Position numbers and translations under genes: made by a program. DNA of 49,246 nucleotides, taken from IMG/VR virus record IMGVR_UViG_3300021373_001471, positions 1 through 49,246 of that record; one strand, written 5' to 3'. Below, one piece after another: positions 4,266 to 45,552 of the stretch (the stretch's first letter is position 1; each line of letters starts with the position of its first letter). This stretch comes from a virus. A model generated the notes under the pieces. It saw only the letters and a list, made by a program, of their open reading frames with translations. It was not told the origin of the DNA and did no database searches.

Positions 4266-5729
4266 TTACATTTCAATAATTAATTTGATGTCTTCTATTT
4301 GGTCTGCAGCTCTAGTCACAGCACCTCTGTTTTCAATGTAGAGGATATTACCTGTAAATCTTTCAACTTCAGGGAATGCAGAATCCAATGAATCTGCATT
4401 ACCAATTACTGCACCATTCTTATAAACAGTATCATCTTGTGCAAAGTTTACATATCCACCTTCACTATTTGCGATTGGTTGGTGTGATACAACTGAACCG
4501 TTGATAGATACTATTCTTGATACTGCAACTCCACTACCGTCTGAAGATGCATTTAGAATGATATCGTCTACTGATAAACCTGATACACTTGATAAAGTCA
4601 TTTTATAGTATGCACCAAGTGTAGTTGCAGTTGCAACTGTTGTTGTTCCTGCAGTGAAAGGGTCTTGTAATAGACCGATTCTTCTGAAATCGTTATCTGT
4701 TGGGAAGTCACCTGAACCTTCGTTGAACTCAAATCTTGAGTTTACGATGATATAGTTTCCACCTAGTTCTTCAACTGGGTCTGCACCATGTCCGTTCATA
4801 GGTGAAATGATTGGTGTTAATACTGCACTTGAACCACTTCCAATTCCTGATATACTTGCAACGTCAATAGATGCACGGTTATAACCTGAACCATATGCAC
4901 TTGTAGTCACTGCAACAGAAGTAATTGCACCACCAGCACCAACAGTCACTGAACAAGTTGCACTTGAACCGTCACCATCGATAGGTACTGCAGTATATGT
5001 TCCAGGCGTATAACCTGAACCACCGTTATCTACTCTTACGTGGTAGATTGCACCTGCAGTTGCAGAGTTTTCTACATCCCACAATGAAGATGAATCGTTG
5101 TCTGCACTTGAACCTAACTGACCGTTAGTTCCAGTACCTGCAACAGCAGTTTTTGCACCCAATGTTTTAACTGGGATAAAGTCTGAGGTGACGTATTTAA
5201 TAGTATCTGCAGCTGATACAGTGTACATGTATTTCCAAATATATCCTTGAGCAGCACCAGTGTCTGAGGTATACACTAGGTCTGTTGCACTTGTTCCTGT
5301 TGGTTTAACAGTTGAGGCAACTGTTGCACCTGAAGAATTTCTTCCAGTTCTGATACATTTATAAACATTATAGTCGTCTGTTAAGACAAAAAACTTTGAA
5401 TCAAAAAGATTGTTTGCAGAAGTGCCTGGACTTGTATTTGATGAACTATAATCATGTGCATATTCGTCATATGTAGTTCCTGTTGTCCAGTCATATCTTG
5501 TTAATGCATGAGAAACGTCTGCAGTAGACACTTTCTTCATAGAAAGCATGTCTGAAAATGCATCCATTTCCTCACTTGTTCCGTTTACAGGAACAGGTGG
5601 AGACGTATCATCCGTCCAAGGATGTGAACGTCCTATAAAAATATATGTTGATGAAGCGGATTCACCAAAGTCCTCTTTAAATTGTTTCGCATTGTGTGTT
5701 CGAAACTTTTCCGTTATAATTGCTGCCAT
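4266..5729 (-). CDS. 8: Baseplate wedge subunit gp8
   Basis: A 487-residue homologue of T4 gp8, a homodimeric wedge protein that bridges gp7, gp6 and gp10 in the baseplate. The N-terminus (TEKFRTHNAKQF, then YIFIGRSHPW) matches the T4 TSKFRTEKMLNF...FITFGRSEPW segment. The extreme C-terminus (GNILYIENRGAVTRAADQIE) matches T4 GEMIYMENRPPIIMAMDQTE. It is longer than T4 gp8 (334 aa). The extra length is a glycine/serine-rich beta insertion at about residues 225-300 (VDNGGSGYTPGTYT...) of a type common in marine phages. The start has a strong GAGGAG ribosome-binding site and two late promoters just upstream. Order gp6-gp7-gp8 is as in T4. Confidence 0.92.
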   Translation of the reverse strand: MAAIITEKFRTHNAKQFKEDFGESASSTYIFIGRSHPWTDDTSPPVPVNGTSEEMDAFSDMLSMKKVSTADVSHALTRYDWTTGTTYDEYAHDYSSSNTSPGTSANNLFDSKFFVLTDDYNVYKCIRTGRNSSGATVASTVKPTGTSATDLVYTSDTGAAQGYIWKYMYTVSAADTIKYVTSDFIPVKTLGAKTAVAGTGTNGQLGSSADNDSSSLWDVENSATAGAIYHVRVDNGGSGYTPGTYTAVPIDGDGSSATCSVTVGAGGAITSVAVTTSAYGSGYNRASIDVASISGIGSGSSAVLTPIISPMNGHGADPVEELGGNYIIVNSRFEFNEGSGDFPTDNDFRRIGLLQDPFTAGTTTVATATTLGAYYKMTLSSVSGLSVDDIILNASSDGSGVAVSRIVSINGSVVSHQPIANSEGGYVNFAQDDTVYKNGAVIGNADSLDSAFPEVERFTGNILYIENRGAVTRAADQIEDIKLIIEM

Positions 5730-29677: not shown

Positions 29678-31408
29678 TTAGTCTCCTATTAAAGTTAAAC
29701 ATTCGTTTAGGGAATTATTCCCACTTGTATATGATACGGTATTTCTCGTAGCATTGTCAAGTGTTAAACAGTATTCACCAACAGTAGTAAAACTGTATAC
29801 GTAAGTGTAAGTAGTGTCAACCTTTTCTATCTGAAGTTCATCACCACCGTAAATATAACTCTGTAATGTATTTACATTATCTATTCCTTTAGGAATTGCA
29901 CTCAACTCAGAATACAAATCCATCACTTGAGTCAAGTCTCCATTCATTACAATGTTTTCTATATCATAATTTAAAAGATTGTTAGATGCATTCTTAATAA
30001 TCAAAACAGTATTGAGAGTAGGTTGGTCGGTATACCAATCTCTTATTCTAATTTGTTTACTTGTTTCGTTAAGAGATACTTGTCTATCGAATTGAGAATT
30101 AGTTTCTCTATCAGAGAACAATATAATCTCCTCTTCAACAGTTCTTAAATTACCATCTACATCATAGTCTTGTATTATAGAATCCTTAAGTGTAATGTCT
30201 ATGTCATCGTCAATGTAGTTTTCTGCAAACAGGTTAAGTGATTCCTCATAGAAATCTGCACTTTCAACTACGTTAATTAAATCCATAGACATGGGTTGGT
30301 TGTTTCTATCTAAAAGATTACCTTCACCATCAATAGTGATATTGTGAAAATAGAATCTTAAGATTTGTTGAAAGTTATCGATTGTGATACTACCATCTTC
30401 TTCATAGAAGATATCAGTTTCTAAACTAGTAAAGTTTGGATTAGATAACACGGTATCAATCATACCCTTACCCATGTATTGTTTAAGAGGTGAGTTTACA
30501 TTATCCTGTATGAGAGACTTGAGTGTCTCTGCAGTAGATAATATATCAACTATATTTTCTGCAATTGTTTGTTTATCAGTATCACCGTTTAATATAAAGT
30601 CATCATAAAAATAGATTGGGTCAATTCCATATGCATTTGATAATTGATTCATGACACCATCCATCTTTAGAAGAAGTTCTGACATCAAATCATTTGCATA
30701 TGCATCACAACTCTCATTGAATGGAAATGGTTGAACATTGAGTTCTTCTATAAAGTATTCTAACAAACTCAAAAAAGGTGTAATGTTAAAATCAACATCG
30801 GGTCTCCACCCACCGTATTCATAAAATGGAATATATGCCATTTCATATGCAGTTTCTACATAACCTCTCTCTGAATCGTATGCACCTATTGGAACTTCTG
30901 CTCTTATGAGTTTTTTACCATAATAACAACTTCCATCAATACCCTCATTCCATGGAGTGACATTATAAGTCTCCCACCATGGTGCAGGAGGATTGTCTCC
31001 ATAATGTCCTAGACTTTTGTAGTAGTTATAATCTTCTACTGTTTTTTTATCAAGAAACCAATAGTAATTGTCGGGTGGGTCTACAGTAATCTCTTGAGTG
31101 CAACCATTTTCATCTGCCTCAATACACTGTTGAAAAGGTTCAGTGACCCCAGTCCAAAATGCACTTTGTTCATTTTCGTCTTGGACACCGTTAAAATTCA
31201 AATCAACATAAACGTTTGCACCTTCAACATAACCGTCAATCACGGTAATCTTATTTACATGTTCATGTATATTAAAATTATTTACACTTGTAGACACTGG
31301 TGGACTTGAACTATTGTCAACTGGTGTAAGTGTTAACCCACCAGCACTTCCACCTCCACCACAACCTACTAACAAGAGTAGGGTAAGTAAACTAAACTGC
31401 TTCATCAT
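29678..31408 (-). CDS. Large phage-encoded lipoprotein
   Basis: 576 residues from the ATG at 31408, chosen because GGAG lies 7 nt upstream; a start at 31453 would put 15 extra residues before the signal peptide. MMKQFSLLTLLLLVGC is a classical lipoprotein signal with lipobox LVGC (Cys16), followed by a Gly/Ser linker. Residues about 56-83 (VIDGYVEGANVYVDLNFNGV then QDENE) match a repeat of proteobacterial surface lipoproteins, with a Ca-binding-like DxNxNGxxDxxE. The remaining ~490 residues are acidic with several Cys and no recognised domain; the C-terminus is beta-rich. The +2 residue is Gly, compatible with outer-membrane sorting. Such a gene could alter receptors or block superinfection; that role is inferred. 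Confidence 0.82.
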   Translation of the reverse strand: MMKQFSLLTLLLLVGCGGGGSAGGLTLTPVDNSSSPPVSTSVNNFNIHEHVNKITVIDGYVEGANVYVDLNFNGVQDENEQSAFWTGVTEPFQQCIEADENGCTQEITVDPPDNYYWFLDKKTVEDYNYYKSLGHYGDNPPAPWWETYNVTPWNEGIDGSCYYGKKLIRAEVPIGAYDSERGYVETAYEMAYIPFYEYGGWRPDVDFNITPFLSLLEYFIEELNVQPFPFNESCDAYANDLMSELLLKMDGVMNQLSNAYGIDPIYFYDDFILNGDTDKQTIAENIVDILSTAETLKSLIQDNVNSPLKQYMGKGMIDTVLSNPNFTSLETDIFYEEDGSITIDNFQQILRFYFHNITIDGEGNLLDRNNQPMSMDLINVVESADFYEESLNLFAENYIDDDIDITLKDSIIQDYDVDGNLRTVEEEIILFSDRETNSQFDRQVSLNETSKQIRIRDWYTDQPTLNTVLIIKNASNNLLNYDIENIVMNGDLTQVMDLYSELSAIPKGIDNVNTLQSYIYGGDELQIEKVDTTYTYVYSFTTVGEYCLTLDNATRNTVSYTSGNNSLNECLTLIGD

Positions 31409-31787
31409 ATCTTTCTCCATTATGATTGATACCATTTTGATTATAGTTATCAAGAATCATATCAACCACATCAGTTGCATAGATGGATTTACCACCTACG
31501 TGCCAGTCATACTCTTCTAATGGAGTTCCACTGGTTTTCCAATTATAGATAGTGACGGTCTCATATTCCCAATCGTCTCTATCGATTTCCTCAACGGTAT
31601 TTGCATCATACCACTTCGCATCTATGACCCATTCAGTCTGAACCTTCTCATAAGGGTCACCACTAGAAAAGGTTGGTGGGCCTAAGACTTCTCTAAGTCT
31701 ACTGTAAGTAGTAGTCTTATAACCCTGTAAACTAGTTCCACCCGAACACATATCGGGAGAACACACTTCGTAATCTTTTATTATCAT
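31392..31787 (-). CDS. Conserved phage hypothetical protein
   Basis: 131 residues; TYSRLREVLGPPTFSSGDPY, then EYETVTIYNWKTSGTPLEEY, DWHVGGKSIYATDVVDMIL. The WxVDxKW...TIYNWK...WHVGGKS pattern is shared by small proteins of many phages and looks like a compact beta-alpha fold, but no function is known to me. It has AGGAGAC before its ATG and its end overlaps the lipoprotein start by 17 nt, so the two are co-expressed. Confidence 0.72.
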   Translation of the reverse strand: MIIKDYEVCSPDMCSGGTSLQGYKTTTYSRLREVLGPPTFSSGDPYEKVQTEWVIDAKWYDANTVEEIDRDDWEYETVTIYNWKTSGTPLEEYDWHVGGKSIYATDVVDMILDNYNQNGINHNGERYDEAV

Positions 31788-33344: not shown

Positions 33345-33419
33345 TGGTACCCTGTAGGAGAATCGAACTCCTGTTGCATGGATGAAAACCATGTGTCCTA
33401 ACCACTAGACGAACAGGGC
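33345..33419 (-). tRNA. tRNA-Glu (anticodon UUC)
   Basis: Complete cloverleaf on the minus strand. The acceptor GCCCTGT pairs with ACAGGGT. The D arm contains CGTCTAGTGGTTAGGACA. The anticodon stem is CATGG/CCATG with loop TTTTCAT (anticodon TTC), and the T arm is AGGAG/CTCCT with loop TTCGATT. It is 72 nt without and 75 nt with the encoded 3' CCA (33345-33347). GAA is a very frequent codon in these acidic, AT-rich phage genes, so the tRNA would support late translation. It has its own strong promoter at 33438-33467. Confidence 0.95.
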
Positions 33420-41329: not shown

Positions 41330-42742
41330 TTATTTTTTCTCGATATCGTGAAGTTCCTTTGTTTCTATAAAATCAGTCACCACAAAATTCCTTGCTGGGT
41401 TGACCATTACATTTGCTCTCTTCATAAATCTCTGATTCATTAAACACTTAGTGGTCTTATGAGTTCTATCGTCTAAGATGAACTCTGCATCCTCATAGTC
41501 ATTACCATTAAACGAAACTCTGAAGTGTATCATAGGTCTCTCAAAGACCTTAGCATTAACTGCTCCTCTCTCAAACTTAACCATCTTAACTAGGTCATGA
41601 ACAAATTTATGTCCGTTCACTTCCCAGTGAACTTTCCTACCTTTGACTTCAAACTTCTCTGCATGTAAAGAACACTTAGCACTATTACCTGTATCAAAGT
41701 TTGCAAGTATTCTCCCTACACCTTCAATGTATATCTGTTCGAACTTACCAATTTGGGTTGGAGTCCTTCTCCAGTTTGCACGGTCTTCATAATATTCTAT
41801 AACAGTCTTTGCAACATTGATACCTGTTGCATCTTCAAATCCATCCGTGCCAGGTGAACTGTTTACTTCTAAACAATAGGGTGTTCCATCTTTATCTAAA
41901 ATAAAATCTACTGCAGTCCAGTCTCCGTTGACTGACTTATGAGCATCTAAACATAGTTTGATTTCTTCTTCATTTAACTTATAAGGTTTACCTTCTGCAC
42001 CTTGTGATATGTTAGAACGAAAGTCTCCCTTAATCTGCATACGTTTCATTGCACCAAGAATCTCACCACCAAGAACTTGAACACGAACATCACCATCGGA
42101 TTCAATAAACTGTTGAACGATGAACTCGACATCGGGGTCTAACTTATACAACATCGCAACCAAAGCCTTAAGAGACCTTTCCGATTCAATGAACATTACA
42201 CCCACACCCTTAGACCCTCTAAGGGTTTTTAGTATAAAGGGATAGTCTAGGTCAATACTTTCAATAGACTCCTGTAGAGTCTCCTTAGAACGCACTAATG
42301 CACTTCTAGGTTGAGTCACTCCAACTTCTCTAAGTTTAATTGAACTCCAGTATTTGTCTGCACACATCATAACCGTCTCACGGTTATTGACACATGGGAC
42401 ATTCATCTTCTCTAATTGAGAAACTAAATCCATGTATGAATCTTTACTTGCAGCAGAACCACGAATAATTGCAATTACGTTTTCGTCTATTACCCACTCT
42501 TTATCTGAATCATGATTAGAAATAGAAGTAATGTCTTTATCTTTAGTAATAATTGCATCTTCGATGTGAGCAATGAAACAGTCGAGTCCTTTTTTCTTAC
42601 ACTCATCTTGTAATCTTCCTGCAGTGATAAATGGTTTCTTACCCTTATGGTCATTCTTTGCAGAGACAACAAGCAACCGTATAGGTGCTTTGTTCTTTTT
42701 TACTTTTTCTTTCTTTTCTACAATTTCTAAAAAGGATTTCAT
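41330..42742 (-). CDS. RimK-type ATP-grasp ligase fused to RimB-like aspartyl protease domain
   Basis: 470 residues in two domains. Residues about 20-305 are RimK-like: LKTLRGSKGVGVMFI (ATP-grasp loop), FIVQQFIESDGDVRVQVLGG then GAMKRMQIKGDFRSNISQGA, and AVDFILDKDGTPYCLEVNSS with PG (metal-binding Asp/Glu/Asn). RimK adds glutamates to the C-terminus of ribosomal protein S6. Residues about 330-455 match the RimK-associated ATP-dependent zinc/retropepsin-like protease (RimB): ILANFDTGNSAKCSLHAEKF with the DTG active-site triplet, then AEFILDDRTHKTTKCLMNQR. Fusion of writer and trimmer in one phage protein is unusual. With phage bS21 it suggests ribosome modification, though another protein target is possible. 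Confidence 0.88.
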   Translation of the reverse strand: MKSFLEIVEKKEKVKKNKAPIRLLVVSAKNDHKGKKPFITAGRLQDECKKKGLDCFIAHIEDAIITKDKDITSISNHDSDKEWVIDENVIAIIRGSAASKDSYMDLVSQLEKMNVPCVNNRETVMMCADKYWSSIKLREVGVTQPRSALVRSKETLQESIESIDLDYPFILKTLRGSKGVGVMFIESERSLKALVAMLYKLDPDVEFIVQQFIESDGDVRVQVLGGEILGAMKRMQIKGDFRSNISQGAEGKPYKLNEEEIKLCLDAHKSVNGDWTAVDFILDKDGTPYCLEVNSSPGTDGFEDATGINVAKTVIEYYEDRANWRRTPTQIGKFEQIYIEGVGRILANFDTGNSAKCSLHAEKFEVKGRKVHWEVNGHKFVHDLVKMVKFERGAVNAKVFERPMIHFRVSFNGNDYEDAEFILDDRTHKTTKCLMNQRFMKRANVMVNPARNFVVTDFIETKELHDIEKK

Positions 42743-43071: not shown

Positions 43072-43516
43072 TATCTTCTTCTACAGTAGTATTATTTAGT
43101 AGAGATTCGATATCTAAGGGTTCTTTCTTTTCAATTCCTGCAAATTTACAATTATCAAACTCGTGTGCAGTTCCACAACCACAAGTAGTTTCAAACTCAT
43201 CGTTAGGATTCATAAAGTCTAATCTTTTTTGTAATCCTTCTTCACGATAGTCTATGTGTAAACCGTTTACAAGTTGTGCATGTTCTTGGTGAACTAAAAT
43301 AATATAATCAGTAAAGTCAAGTGTAATATCACCCACTTGCCATGTGTCTTCAAAAAATAAATATTTGTACCCACCCCATTTTTCTTGATAGTCTTGTACA
43401 CCTAATCTTGCATGAGGTACATTACCTCTACCTACTATTTCATTAGTAGAACGTGGTAAGTGTTCGTCTAAATCTTTTTTAATATACGAATGTGCCTTTT
43501 CACTTATTGTAATCAT
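43037..43516 (-). CDS. A-type Fe-S carrier (IscA/HesB)-like protein, first Cys missing
   Basis: 159 residues. The beginning MITISEKAHSYIKKDLDEHL and the block IDYREEGLQKRLDFMNPNDE with TTCGCGTAHEF match IscA (E. coli ...[25 protein letters not shown]). The C-terminal CGCG pair (Cys112, Cys114) is kept. The third ligand, Cys35 in GVRTSGCSG, is replaced within GVQDYQEKWGGYKYLFF. An acidic tail follows (LLNNTTVEEDNEDIVSESEG). It may carry a cluster with altered ligation or act as a scaffold for the radical SAM enzyme of this genome; that link is inferred. Confidence 0.8.
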   Translation of the reverse strand: MITISEKAHSYIKKDLDEHLPRSTNEIVGRGNVPHARLGVQDYQEKWGGYKYLFFEDTWQVGDITLDFTDYIILVHQEHAQLVNGLHIDYREEGLQKRLDFMNPNDEFETTCGCGTAHEFDNCKFAGIEKKEPLDIESLLNNTTVEEDNEDIVSESEGT

Positions 43517-44103
43517 GATATATCCTTGTTATGTATTAGTTCAATCGGTATTACTATATCTTGGTCTTCGGGTACATACAATTGATTTATCTCTGAACGA
43601 TTACAAGTATCGATTGCATCAAAGATAGTTTCAACTAATGCATCACCACCTAAATTAAAAGACGTATTGAATATCATAGGGACTCCAGTTCTTTCGTAGA
43701 ACCCTTTGATAAGATTATAGTAATTCGGATTTTGTTCTTCAGTGACTGTTTGTATTCTACAGGTTCCGTCTGCATGAACAAGAGAAGGAACTTTTTCATA
43801 TGCAATGTCTTTCGCTTTAATTGCAAATGACATCCATGGAGATTCTTTAAGTTGCAACATTTCAAAGTATTCGTCTGCATGTTCTAACATGACACTACCT
43901 GCAAAAGGTCTATAAGATTCTCTCTTCTTTACTTGGTTAACGATTTGTTTTGCTTCAGGGTGACGTGGGTCAAACATTATAGAACGATTACCCAATGCAC
44001 GAGGCCCCCATTCACCTTCACCTTGGAAGATTGCAACAATCTGTTGTTCGTCAATAATTAAATCTAAACACTCGTCCAAGTCTCTAATAATATTAGTTCT
44101 CAT
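43513..44103 (-). CDS. Carbamoyltransferase, C-terminal domain (split NodU/CmcH family)
   Basis: 196 residues matching the C-terminal domain of NodU/CmcH/TobZ-type carbamoyltransferases: FQGEGEWGPRALGNRSIMFD then PRHPEAKQIVNQVKKRESYR PFAGSVM, and PMIFNTSFNLGGDALVETIF then DAIDT. The domain binds carbamoyl phosphate/adenylate and completes the active site with the N-terminal part encoded at 44169-45389. The two halves are separate genes joined by a small helical ORF. Carbamoylation of a sugar, nucleoside or tRNA-type threonyl group is the family reaction; the substrate here is unknown. Confidence 0.88.
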   Translation of the reverse strand: MRTNIIRDLDECLDLIIDEQQIVAIFQGEGEWGPRALGNRSIMFDPRHPEAKQIVNQVKKRESYRPFAGSVMLEHADEYFEMLQLKESPWMSFAIKAKDIAYEKVPSLVHADGTCRIQTVTEEQNPNYYNLIKGFYERTGVPMIFNTSFNLGGDALVETIFDAIDTCNRSEINQLYVPEDQDIVIPIELIHNKDIS

Positions 44104-44197
44104 TTTTTATTTCCTTTACCTCTTCTCTTAATTTTTTTATTTCTGCAAGAAGTTCATCAATTGCATTTTTAATCTGACTGTTCGTTGGATGTCCCAT
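44093..44197 (-). CDS. 34-residue helical peptide encoded at the carbamoyltransferase junction
   Basis: From the ATG at 44197 (AGAGGAAAGAA upstream, a good ribosome-binding site) to TAA at 44093. The product MGHPTNSQIKNAIDELLAEI followed by KKLREEVKEIKNEN has a clear heptad pattern (I-x3-L/I), i.e. a short leucine-zipper-like helix. It overlaps the 3' end of the N-terminal carbamoyltransferase gene by 29 nt and the 5' end of the C-terminal gene by 11 nt. The three are translationally coupled. It may dimerise or bridge the two enzyme halves. Confidence 0.65.
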   Translation of the reverse strand: MGHPTNSQIKNAIDELLAEIKKLREEVKEIKNEN

Positions 44198-45389
44198 TTC
44201 TTTCCTCTACAGTAATTTCACCTTCGTTTATTTTTTCGTTCAACCATAATCCTGCACCAACAGCAGTTCCACCATCATGAGGAACAGGGTCAACAAAGAA
44301 TTGATAGTCGGGATATGCTTCTAGGTACTTGTAGTTGTTAGTACAGTTCAATGAATAACCACCACTTAACACTATGTTCTTAGTGTCGGGATTTCTTTCG
44401 ATTGCATTGTCAATAATCTTACACGTCCAATCAAATGAATCCAACTCACACTGTTGTGCAACGGTAAACCTATTGAAAACATTTTTTCTGACTCTACCGT
44501 AAGATGCCATACCCATGACTTTACCTGCGGCTCTTCCTTCTTCATCGGTTCCCAATGCAGCTGATAGGTTAGAAAAGTTCATACCGTTAGAAGGTTCGGA
44601 GGTAAAGACATAGTCCACCTCGTCTCCTGTCGCATTGTCTACGAGTTTTTCTTCAAAGTCTTCTAAACAGTTCGCACAATCGTCTAACTCGTTAGGAAAC
44701 GCATTAGAGAGGTCGGAAATGAGTCTATGATTACTCAATCTCTGCCACTGGAGTGTTGCAAGTTTGTCGGGAGTGCAAGAATAGATAGATTCTATCTCTT
44801 GATACCCTGCATATTCGTCATAAAAAGGTTGACCACCTCCACCGTCTTGCACAATACAGATTGCATTCTCACCGTCTTTGTAAAACGGAGATAATTTATA
44901 CCCACAATATGCATGGTATAGGTGGTGAAAGTCACGGTTGAAGAATTCAGTCCCTTCACGACCAGTAAATTGATGTCGCATAATGTCGTTGATGACTGCT
45001 TTATCACTGGTGATGTCTACAGAAGTCCAAGAAATATTTTTATCATCAAATTTTTCTTGTAATTCTTGCATACGAGAGTGAGTAAGGGGTTTTGCACTGA
45101 CATCTGCAAGAAAATCTCTTGCATTCATACGATTAAAGATTAAAGTATCGTCTTGTAGATTAAATTTCATGTTTCTACGGTCAAAACTTGCAAAAATTAT
45201 CGCATCCCAGTCATCCGTACACAATTTATGTTCGATACAATCGTAAATACAGGACTCGTCTCCACCGTAATCGGGTGCCCAGTACTTATTTCTTCTGAAA
45301 CGTGCTTCGTCATAGACGAATGTCACTTCACCGTCTACGATACCTGCAACAGAAGCATCGTGTGATATATTAATTCCTAGTATTTTCAT
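44169..45389 (-). CDS. Carbamoyltransferase, N-terminal domain (split NodU/CmcH family)
   Basis: 406 residues from the ATG at 45389; the longer reading begins with TTG at 45398 and is less likely. MKILGINISHDASVAGIVDG is the family's N-terminal nucleotide-binding (ASKHA) start, followed by DEARFRRNKYW, HHLYHAYCGYKLSPF, the IVQDGGGGQPFYD loop, MGMASYGRV, and NIVLSGGYSLNCTNNYKYLE then PHDGGTAVGAGLWLNE. The canonical family is a single chain of 550-600 residues; here the chain stops after the N-terminal domain and the rest is in 43513-44103. Confidence 0.9.
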   Translation of the reverse strand: MKILGINISHDASVAGIVDGEVTFVYDEARFRRNKYWAPDYGGDESCIYDCIEHKLCTDDWDAIIFASFDRRNMKFNLQDDTLIFNRMNARDFLADVSAKPLTHSRMQELQEKFDDKNISWTSVDITSDKAVINDIMRHQFTGREGTEFFNRDFHHLYHAYCGYKLSPFYKDGENAICIVQDGGGGQPFYDEYAGYQEIESIYSCTPDKLATLQWQRLSNHRLISDLSNAFPNELDDCANCLEDFEEKLVDNATGDEVDYVFTSEPSNGMNFSNLSAALGTDEEGRAAGKVMGMASYGRVRKNVFNRFTVAQQCELDSFDWTCKIIDNAIERNPDTKNIVLSGGYSLNCTNNYKYLEAYPDYQFFVDPVPHDGGTAVGAGLWLNEKINEGEITVEERNGTSNEQSD

Positions 45390-45552
45390 TCTTTCCAATC
45401 ACCTTATTTTTTAAATCTTTAAGACTAAAGAGTTTAAAGTCTATTAAATCTTCTAACATTTCACCTCGTCCATACTTGTATCCTGCTTTCCAACTGAAAT
45501 AGACACAAGCACCAATAAATCCTAGGTGAATTAAATATAATTCTATTGTCAT
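45370..45552 (-). CDS. Small single-pass membrane protein
   Basis: 60 residues: MTIELYLIHLGFIGACVYFS then WKAGYKYGRGEMLEDLIDFK. One hydrophobic helix near residues 4-22 followed by a basic/acidic cytoplasmic tail. Overlaps its upstream neighbour by ATGA and the carbamoyltransferase start by 20 nt. Function not recognised. Confidence 0.62.
   Translation of the reverse strand: MTIELYLIHLGFIGACVYFSWKAGYKYGRGEMLEDLIDFKLFSLKDLKNKVIGKNENTRN

Follow-up and report, generated by a model that had tools for sequence, protein, structure and literature searches.

The lipoprotein Llp of phage T5 is made early in lytic infection, blocks the receptor FhuA, and prevents both superinfection and adsorption to debris (PMC9586334). 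The same paper gives the structure entry of Llp (8A60) and describes exclusion lipoproteins as 'small phage lipoproteins' (PMC9586334). An earlier note on the DNA analyzed here, written from the sequence alone, had singled out a phage lipoprotein larger than these, and at 576 aa it does exceed the size class described there (PMC9586334). The DNA, hereafter the window, is an IMG/VR fragment of 49,246 bases. To judge from its gene content, the window is a fragment of a T4-like phage, which agrees with the phage origin assumed earlier: it encodes a helicase loader, a gp32-like ssDNA-binding protein, an exonuclease, and a DNA end protector. One structural gene is related to Pelagibacter phages, and the gp32-like protein is 54-56% identical to those of Pelagibacter phages Mosig and HTVC008M and Methylophilales phage Melnitz. 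The window also contains a Nol-like carbamoyltransferase at 43513-45398, which falls into two neighboring frames, one at 44169-45398 and one, recognized by eye, at 43513-44103, and a phage ATP-grasp protein resembling ribosomal protein S6 glutaminyl transferase (41330-42742). The candidate late promoter TATAAATA was uninformative in the window, with 9 occurrences seen and 6.64 expected.

The features of the locus are listed in Table 1. The 576-residue frame previously read at 29678-31408 was confirmed on the minus strand with its start at ATG 31408; the plus strand of this interval has many stops. The longest open frame, from a TTG at 31453, has 591 aa. The ATG is preceded by GGAG, 6 nt upstream, and a positive residue stands just before the hydrophobic stretch. 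The mature lipoprotein has 561 aa and a pI of 4.05 (94 D/E versus 27 K/R), and is thus as acidic as had been supposed. Homologs of the upstream gene adjoin the corresponding slot in related phages, and 182 bases separate the lipoprotein gene from the downstream hydrolase gene. The hydrolase has an N-terminal hydrophobic stretch of its own, a possible signal anchor.

Table 1. Coordinates of the lipoprotein gene, its parts, and nearby features in the window
Feature	Position	Strand	Remarks
Lipoprotein gene	29678..31408	minus	576 aa; coordinates include the stop codon
Signal peptide and lipobox, residues 1-16 (MMKQFSLLTLLLLVGC)	31361..31408	minus	Cys16, predicted lipid site
Gly-rich, then Ser/Pro/Thr-rich linker, residues 17-43	31280..31360	minus	Predicted disordered; pLDDT < 50 (residues 1-43)
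Single EF-hand-like loop DLNFNGVQDENE, residues 69-80	31169..31204	minus	Predicted calcium site
Shared module, residues ~55-350	30359..31246	minus	In SAR86 multi-unit surface proteins
C-terminal domain, residues 351-576	29681..30358	minus	Large antiparallel beta sheet and helices; pLDDT mostly 85-96
Upstream gene, 131 aa	31392..31787	minus	Overlaps the lipoprotein start by 17 bases
SleB-type cell wall hydrolase, 176 aa	28965..29495	minus	PF07486, E 5.3e-24
tRNA-Glu (TTC)	33345..33419	minus	Closest to SAR86 tRNA-Glu

The N-terminus reads MMKQFSLLTLLLLVGC-GGGGSAGG, and its lipobox (LVGC, residues 13-16) fits the pattern [LVI][ASTVI][GAS]C. The N-terminal lipobox pattern appeared in 17 of 20,000 shuffles of the protein, and one other window frame of at least 60 aa, an unlikely frame of 73 aa, has a similar pattern. 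Conservation is stronger evidence for the lipobox than these shuffles and pattern counts: in alignment A4, all 33 rows keep the lipid-site Cys, even where identity falls to about 20%. The signal peptide, LVGC lipobox, and Gly linker of the earlier note are confirmed. A lipobox was recognized in all 31 phage lineages defined below, in 30 by pattern and in L117 by eye using an upstream Met. Cys161, Cys234, Cys547, and Cys570 are likewise invariant in the 33 rows, and the conservation of Cys16 together with these four is as expected of an exported disulfide protein. In enteric bacteria, Gly at position +2 allows the Lol system to bring a lipoprotein to the outer membrane; the Gly, rather than Asp, that follows Cys16 suggests the same destination here. 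Asp69, Asn71, and Glu80 of the EF-hand-like loop (positions 1, 3, and 12) are invariant in A4, and positions 5 and 9 are kept in 32 of 33 rows. The motif DxNxNGxxDxxE, typical of SdrD B-like and EF-hand-type surface proteins, had been described as a repeat; it is present, but in one copy only.

Used alone as a query, the window protein gave no match among 50,697 named phage records or, by peptide seeds, in IMG/VR, and it matched no Pfam family at E up to 1 and no PHROG below 0.24. The SAR86 protein, used by itself against IMG/VR, likewise brought up no relative. Relatives were reached only through loci fetched by the neighboring hydrolase and then by alignments and profiles. A relative lies upstream of the hydrolase in 9 of 23 such loci (32-69% identical); profile searches next reached 20 viral loci and later 81, 80 of which were kept. 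Cut or short frames were left out of clustering, and the 70 full frames among the kept loci, together with the window protein, form 31 clusters (lineages) at 85% in IMG/VR. Alignment A4 comprises these 31 phage proteins, the SAR86 protein L124, and a protein (L125) encoded on a short contig that belongs to a metagenome bin labeled Longimicrobiales. Among named phages, a relative is present only in Vibrio phages K566 and K567 (2 of 50,697 records, with other members as queries), which constitute one lineage beyond the 31.

Scans of the 33 members against Pfam, PHROGs, and PADLOC found no shared family, with at most 1/33 members per family; the best E value among the PADLOC anti-phage defense profiles was 0.0038. 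An NCBIfam scan limited to 11 members gave at most 1/11 per family (best E 0.019). SdrD B-like PF17210 did not match the window protein at E up to 1 and matched one of 11 relatives at E 0.037. No publication on this lipoprotein family was found among open-license PMC papers. L123, initially returned as a relative, was dropped because only the signal peptide is common, and L126 and L127-L134 have only the N-terminus or a DGY loop in common. The L123 frame (L123:4995-6515) begins with LVGCGGGG, as in the window, and continues into an unrelated body with FG-GAP-like Asp-rich repeats recognized by eye; these phages may commonly encode large lipoproteins. The window protein has the features of the family, namely full-length similarity that includes the C-terminal domain and four invariant Cys residues beyond the lipid site. 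These comparisons delineate a previously unnamed family of lipoproteins of about 475-580 aa, common to T4-like marine phages and SAR86 chromosomes and with remoter members in Vibrio and Aeromonas. The window protein is very probably a host-related lipoprotein.

A profile scan of 84,980 species genomes returned 11 loci, and the only full-length and clearly chromosomal one was from the SAR86 single cell AG-390-J18 (L124:163-1821). Its product is 31% identical to the window protein over residues 7-572 and scored 2.4e-199 against the A2 profile, which included L124. The gene lies between chromosomal genes on a 98-kb single-cell contig, and its flanks were named by eye as flavin monooxygenase-like, SPFH-like, and alanine dehydrogenase-like. 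Matches were found in 34 of 203 genomes of the order of AG-390-J18 (E up to 1e-5). Three of these proteins are near-full and single-unit (G001, G066, and G098), one is cut by a contig end (G146), many are frames of 900-2,500 aa with one or more copies of the shared module, and the rest match at the N-terminus or loop only. SAR86 relatives other than L124 are L139, L140, and the partial L141. Relatives of the single-unit kind were found in Vibrio as well (THAF190c and THAF191d, two in tandem) and in Aeromonas caviae KAM479; lipoproteins of these two genera contain the first half of the shared module. In a draw of 369 genomes of the class, three had a match at E up to 1e-8, and the match is full-length in G001 only.

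Host evidence independent of the lipoprotein comes from the phage tRNA-Glu. Over 73 of its 75 bases, it shares 92% identity (105 bits) with sequences in 17 of 121 SAR86-order genomes; 40 of the 121, including G001, have no tRNA-Glu match at that threshold. The best score in 240 Alphaproteobacteria and 229 class genomes was 80.6 bits (90% over 59), and the best phage tRNAs are about 84-85% identical. The host is therefore probably SAR86 (Gammaproteobacteria) or a close relative, and SAR86 is the likely source group of the gene. The marine Alphaproteobacteria, where the earlier note had proposed to search for cellular homologs, are not supported as the source: 1 of 385 drawn genomes matched, over 39 residues of a 7,940-aa frame. 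An alphaproteobacterial host is disfavored by this result and by the better tRNA-Glu match in SAR86.

Phylogenetic analysis points to exchange between phages and cells. A first tree of 25 proteins requires four phage/cell changes, all of them forced. The tree of 43 proteins requires five, all forced by well supported (starred) branches, although some may be less sure than the stars say because the tree has long branches (L247, L249, K566, SAR86_L124, and others) and two long-branch joins; such counts cannot give the direction of transfer. SAR86 L124 is nested with L185 and L188 in a phage trio (100/100). MAG_L125 groups with phage L213/L219, and its 3.6-kb contig could itself be viral. The K566 protein groups with Vibrio and Aeromonas cell proteins (100/99), suggesting a separate acquisition. 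The interleaving of phage and cell genes indicates several transfers between cellular and phage genomes, and such recurrent movement is well supported. Together with the full-length chromosomal relatives in SAR86, it supports the acquisition of a host surface gene that had been listed among the possible roles.

The phage copies occupy at least seven genomic settings. In 7 of 31 lineages (the window clade), the gene is at most two genes upstream of the hydrolase gene and overlaps it in some. In 18 lineages, it is flanked upstream by dnaB/uvsX or polynucleotide-kinase-like genes, downstream by a phrog_455 gene or by conserved small genes, or on both sides in this way. The remaining six comprise two by a deoxyribonucleotidase and a 2OG oxygenase, two by QueC and a 2OG oxygenase, one after gp32, and one in an unlike setting; the K566 gene adjoins radical SAM genes. 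The closeness to a lysin reported earlier thus holds for the window clade, but not for the other 24 lineages. Replication and recombination genes are the neighbors in the window and in most other lineages, which would fit expression in the early or middle phase, comparable to that of T5 Llp; the early-type operon proposed before is consistent with this gene content. A conserved charged protein of about 57 aa (cl1; L195:1513-1686 and relatives) follows the lipoprotein, usually directly, in 13 lineages, overlaps its stop in some, and is a possible partner. In L226, a 71-aa lipoprotein-like frame (4491-4706; LSACGSW) lies two genes after the large lipoprotein and is nearer in size to the classical exclusion lipoproteins.

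Presence and sequence both vary among close relatives. The lipoprotein is absent from all 19 relatives of the window phage that were fetched by the DenV-like gene and have the hydrolase and an upstream marker, and L082 has a slot without it between flanking genes that are 86-88% identical. In L114, the lipoprotein is 31% identical to that of the window (local alignment), versus 84-100% for 11 of 18 other shared genes. Eight of these are at 96-100% (gp32, in part, helicase loader, g26084, g26383, g26622, g32410, DenV-like, and g34533), and the others are g26974 (91%), a radical SAM gene (90%), and g31392 (84%). This mosaic is not unique to the lipoprotein, since seven other genes are also low, at 45-78%: g34276 (78%), g28121 (75%), exonuclease (72%), hydrolase (66%), g37419 (61%), g33093 (56%), and g37822 (45%). 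Across lineage pairs, which are not independent, lipoprotein identity is below that of dnaB in 91/91, uvsX in 55/55, and cl1 in 67/78, but below that of the neighbor cluster cl4 in only 1/44. The cl4 neighbor diverges even more than the lipoprotein, being not above it in 43/44 pairs. Any protein that is dispensable or exposed would also be expected to diverge fast. The presence/absence pattern and allele divergence mark the gene as an accessory, replaceable piece in a mosaic.

Two AlphaFold2 models were obtained, one from 11 rows (pLDDT 73.3) and one from 33 rows (pLDDT 83.4, pTM 0.77). In the latter, residues 1-43 have low confidence, as for a flexible linker, and the predicted fold consists of an N-terminal mixed module, long helices (236-260 and 277-304), and a large antiparallel sheet (328-471 and 524-562) with helices between. 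Full-length relatives of the C-terminal domain are present only in phages and among SAR86-type proteins. With Foldseek, neither model had a PDB match at E up to 0.001, and the first had no BFVD match; the family profile matched no PDB chain at E up to 1 in a search that can miss short divergent proteins. VIA-align returned mostly outer-membrane and organelle barrels (Z 7.9-9.4, rmsd ~4-9 over 133-195 residues, covering 292-569), scores that, against a stated background of 7-8, may reflect only a common meander. We do not claim a barrel because the Z scores are near background and many strands carry charges. No solved fold convincingly matched the model.

We propose, with a probability of roughly 45%, that the protein mainly alters the surface of the infected cell, for superinfection exclusion or receptor shielding, by acting in relation to a same-family host surface protein. 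The lipoprotein would be made in the infected cell during the replication phase of infection, exported by Sec, and lipidated at Cys16. Its disulfide-bonded, calcium-binding body would face the periplasm or the outside, where the lipoprotein would replace, or bind a partner of, the same-family host surface protein. Further phages would then fail to adsorb or inject. Exclusion or receptor masking is a reasonable function to infer by likeness to T5 Llp, and that task would account for a lipoprotein that is accessory, divergent, and host-derived. Accessory presence and divergent alleles in closely related backbones favor this reading, whereas the size, unlike that of the small exclusion lipoproteins, counts against it. 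A bolder version, which we regard as rather unlikely, holds that the diverging, exchangeable alleles form an immunity coat of lytic T4-like phages of SAR86 and other marine Gammaproteobacteria, the gene being taken up repeatedly from the host and each allele marking the infected cell and shutting out particular competitors. If so, this locus would set superinfection groups among abundant ocean phages.

The main rival is an auxiliary cargo that serves the host, keeping or improving a surface function (nutrient, polymer, or surface binding) and giving no exclusion. In SAR86, Vibrio, and Aeromonas, the relatives are encoded by ordinary genes of the chromosome, the module recurs in the multi-unit surface proteins of SAR86, and several of the phage settings contain known auxiliary genes (2OG-Fe oxygenase, QueC, and deoxyribonucleotidase). 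Such a role is nearly as open as exclusion. The patchy presence among close relatives and strong allele divergence suit conflict genes better, however, and with no ligand or enzyme signature and no solved relative we hold this reading as tentative. The full-length similarity to a host surface lipoprotein and the allele replacement in closely related backbones would also suit a phage copy of a host receptor that is shed or carried on vesicles or debris, where it soaks up competitors or protects progeny from debris. No family member is known to be a receptor, and this decoy or release factor seems improbable.

The abutting hydrolase first suggested a lysis cassette, with the lipoprotein as an accessory of the SleB-type enzyme, for example as an outer-membrane spanin-like partner. 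The gene adjoins the hydrolase or is one gene from it in 7/7 window-clade lineages, overlapping in some. This endolysin neighbor is nevertheless peculiar to the window clade: the gene is elsewhere in 24/31 lineages, mostly by dnaB/uvsX, close relatives keep the hydrolase without the lipoprotein, and bacteria have chromosomal relatives. With linkage to lysis in 7/31 lineages rather than constant, we rejected the cassette and consider a lysis role quite unlikely. Least probable of all is a virion component, such as a tail fiber or decoration protein with a lipobox-like N-terminus. The C-terminal domain is generically beta-rich and the weak Foldseek rows include tail proteins, none below E 0.001, but the export signal and cysteines are conserved, the gene lies away from structural genes in most lineages, and cellular relatives exist.

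This locus delineates a family of large lipoproteins encoded by phages, one not named in any of the libraries scanned. It also links one group of T4-like marine phages to the abundant ocean group SAR86; the searches made here found no isolated phage of SAR86. The presence of a member in named Vibrio phages opens the role of large phage lipoproteins to laboratory testing.

Among the counterparts of the window protein, SAR86 L124, L139, and L140 belong to the same family over nearly the full length, with a lipid-type signal and the same motifs and cysteines; they differ in being chromosomal, in the varied lipobox residues of L124 (SSC-S), and, for L139 and L140, in having no insert bearing Cys95 and Cys103. 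The SAR86 multi-unit surface lipoproteins (900-2,500 aa) have at least one copy of the shared module, but are longer chains, some of them with several units, and differ in the third part. VPHK566_0302 of Vibrio phage K566 (and K567), with 475 aa, has the lipobox LAGCGGGG and the same N-terminal module, whereas its C-terminal half is different and it groups with Vibrio/Aeromonas cell proteins. The likeness to SdrD B-like (PF17210) and EF-hand-type surface proteins lies in the DxNxNGxxDxxE loop, of which the window protein has one and no repeat array. With T5 Llp and the small coliphage exclusion lipoproteins, it shares a lytic phage background and its predicted nature as a phage-encoded outer-membrane lipoprotein; unlike the small Llp, it is an acidic protein of 576 aa with a calcium-loop motif, conserved Cys residues, and full-length chromosomal relatives.
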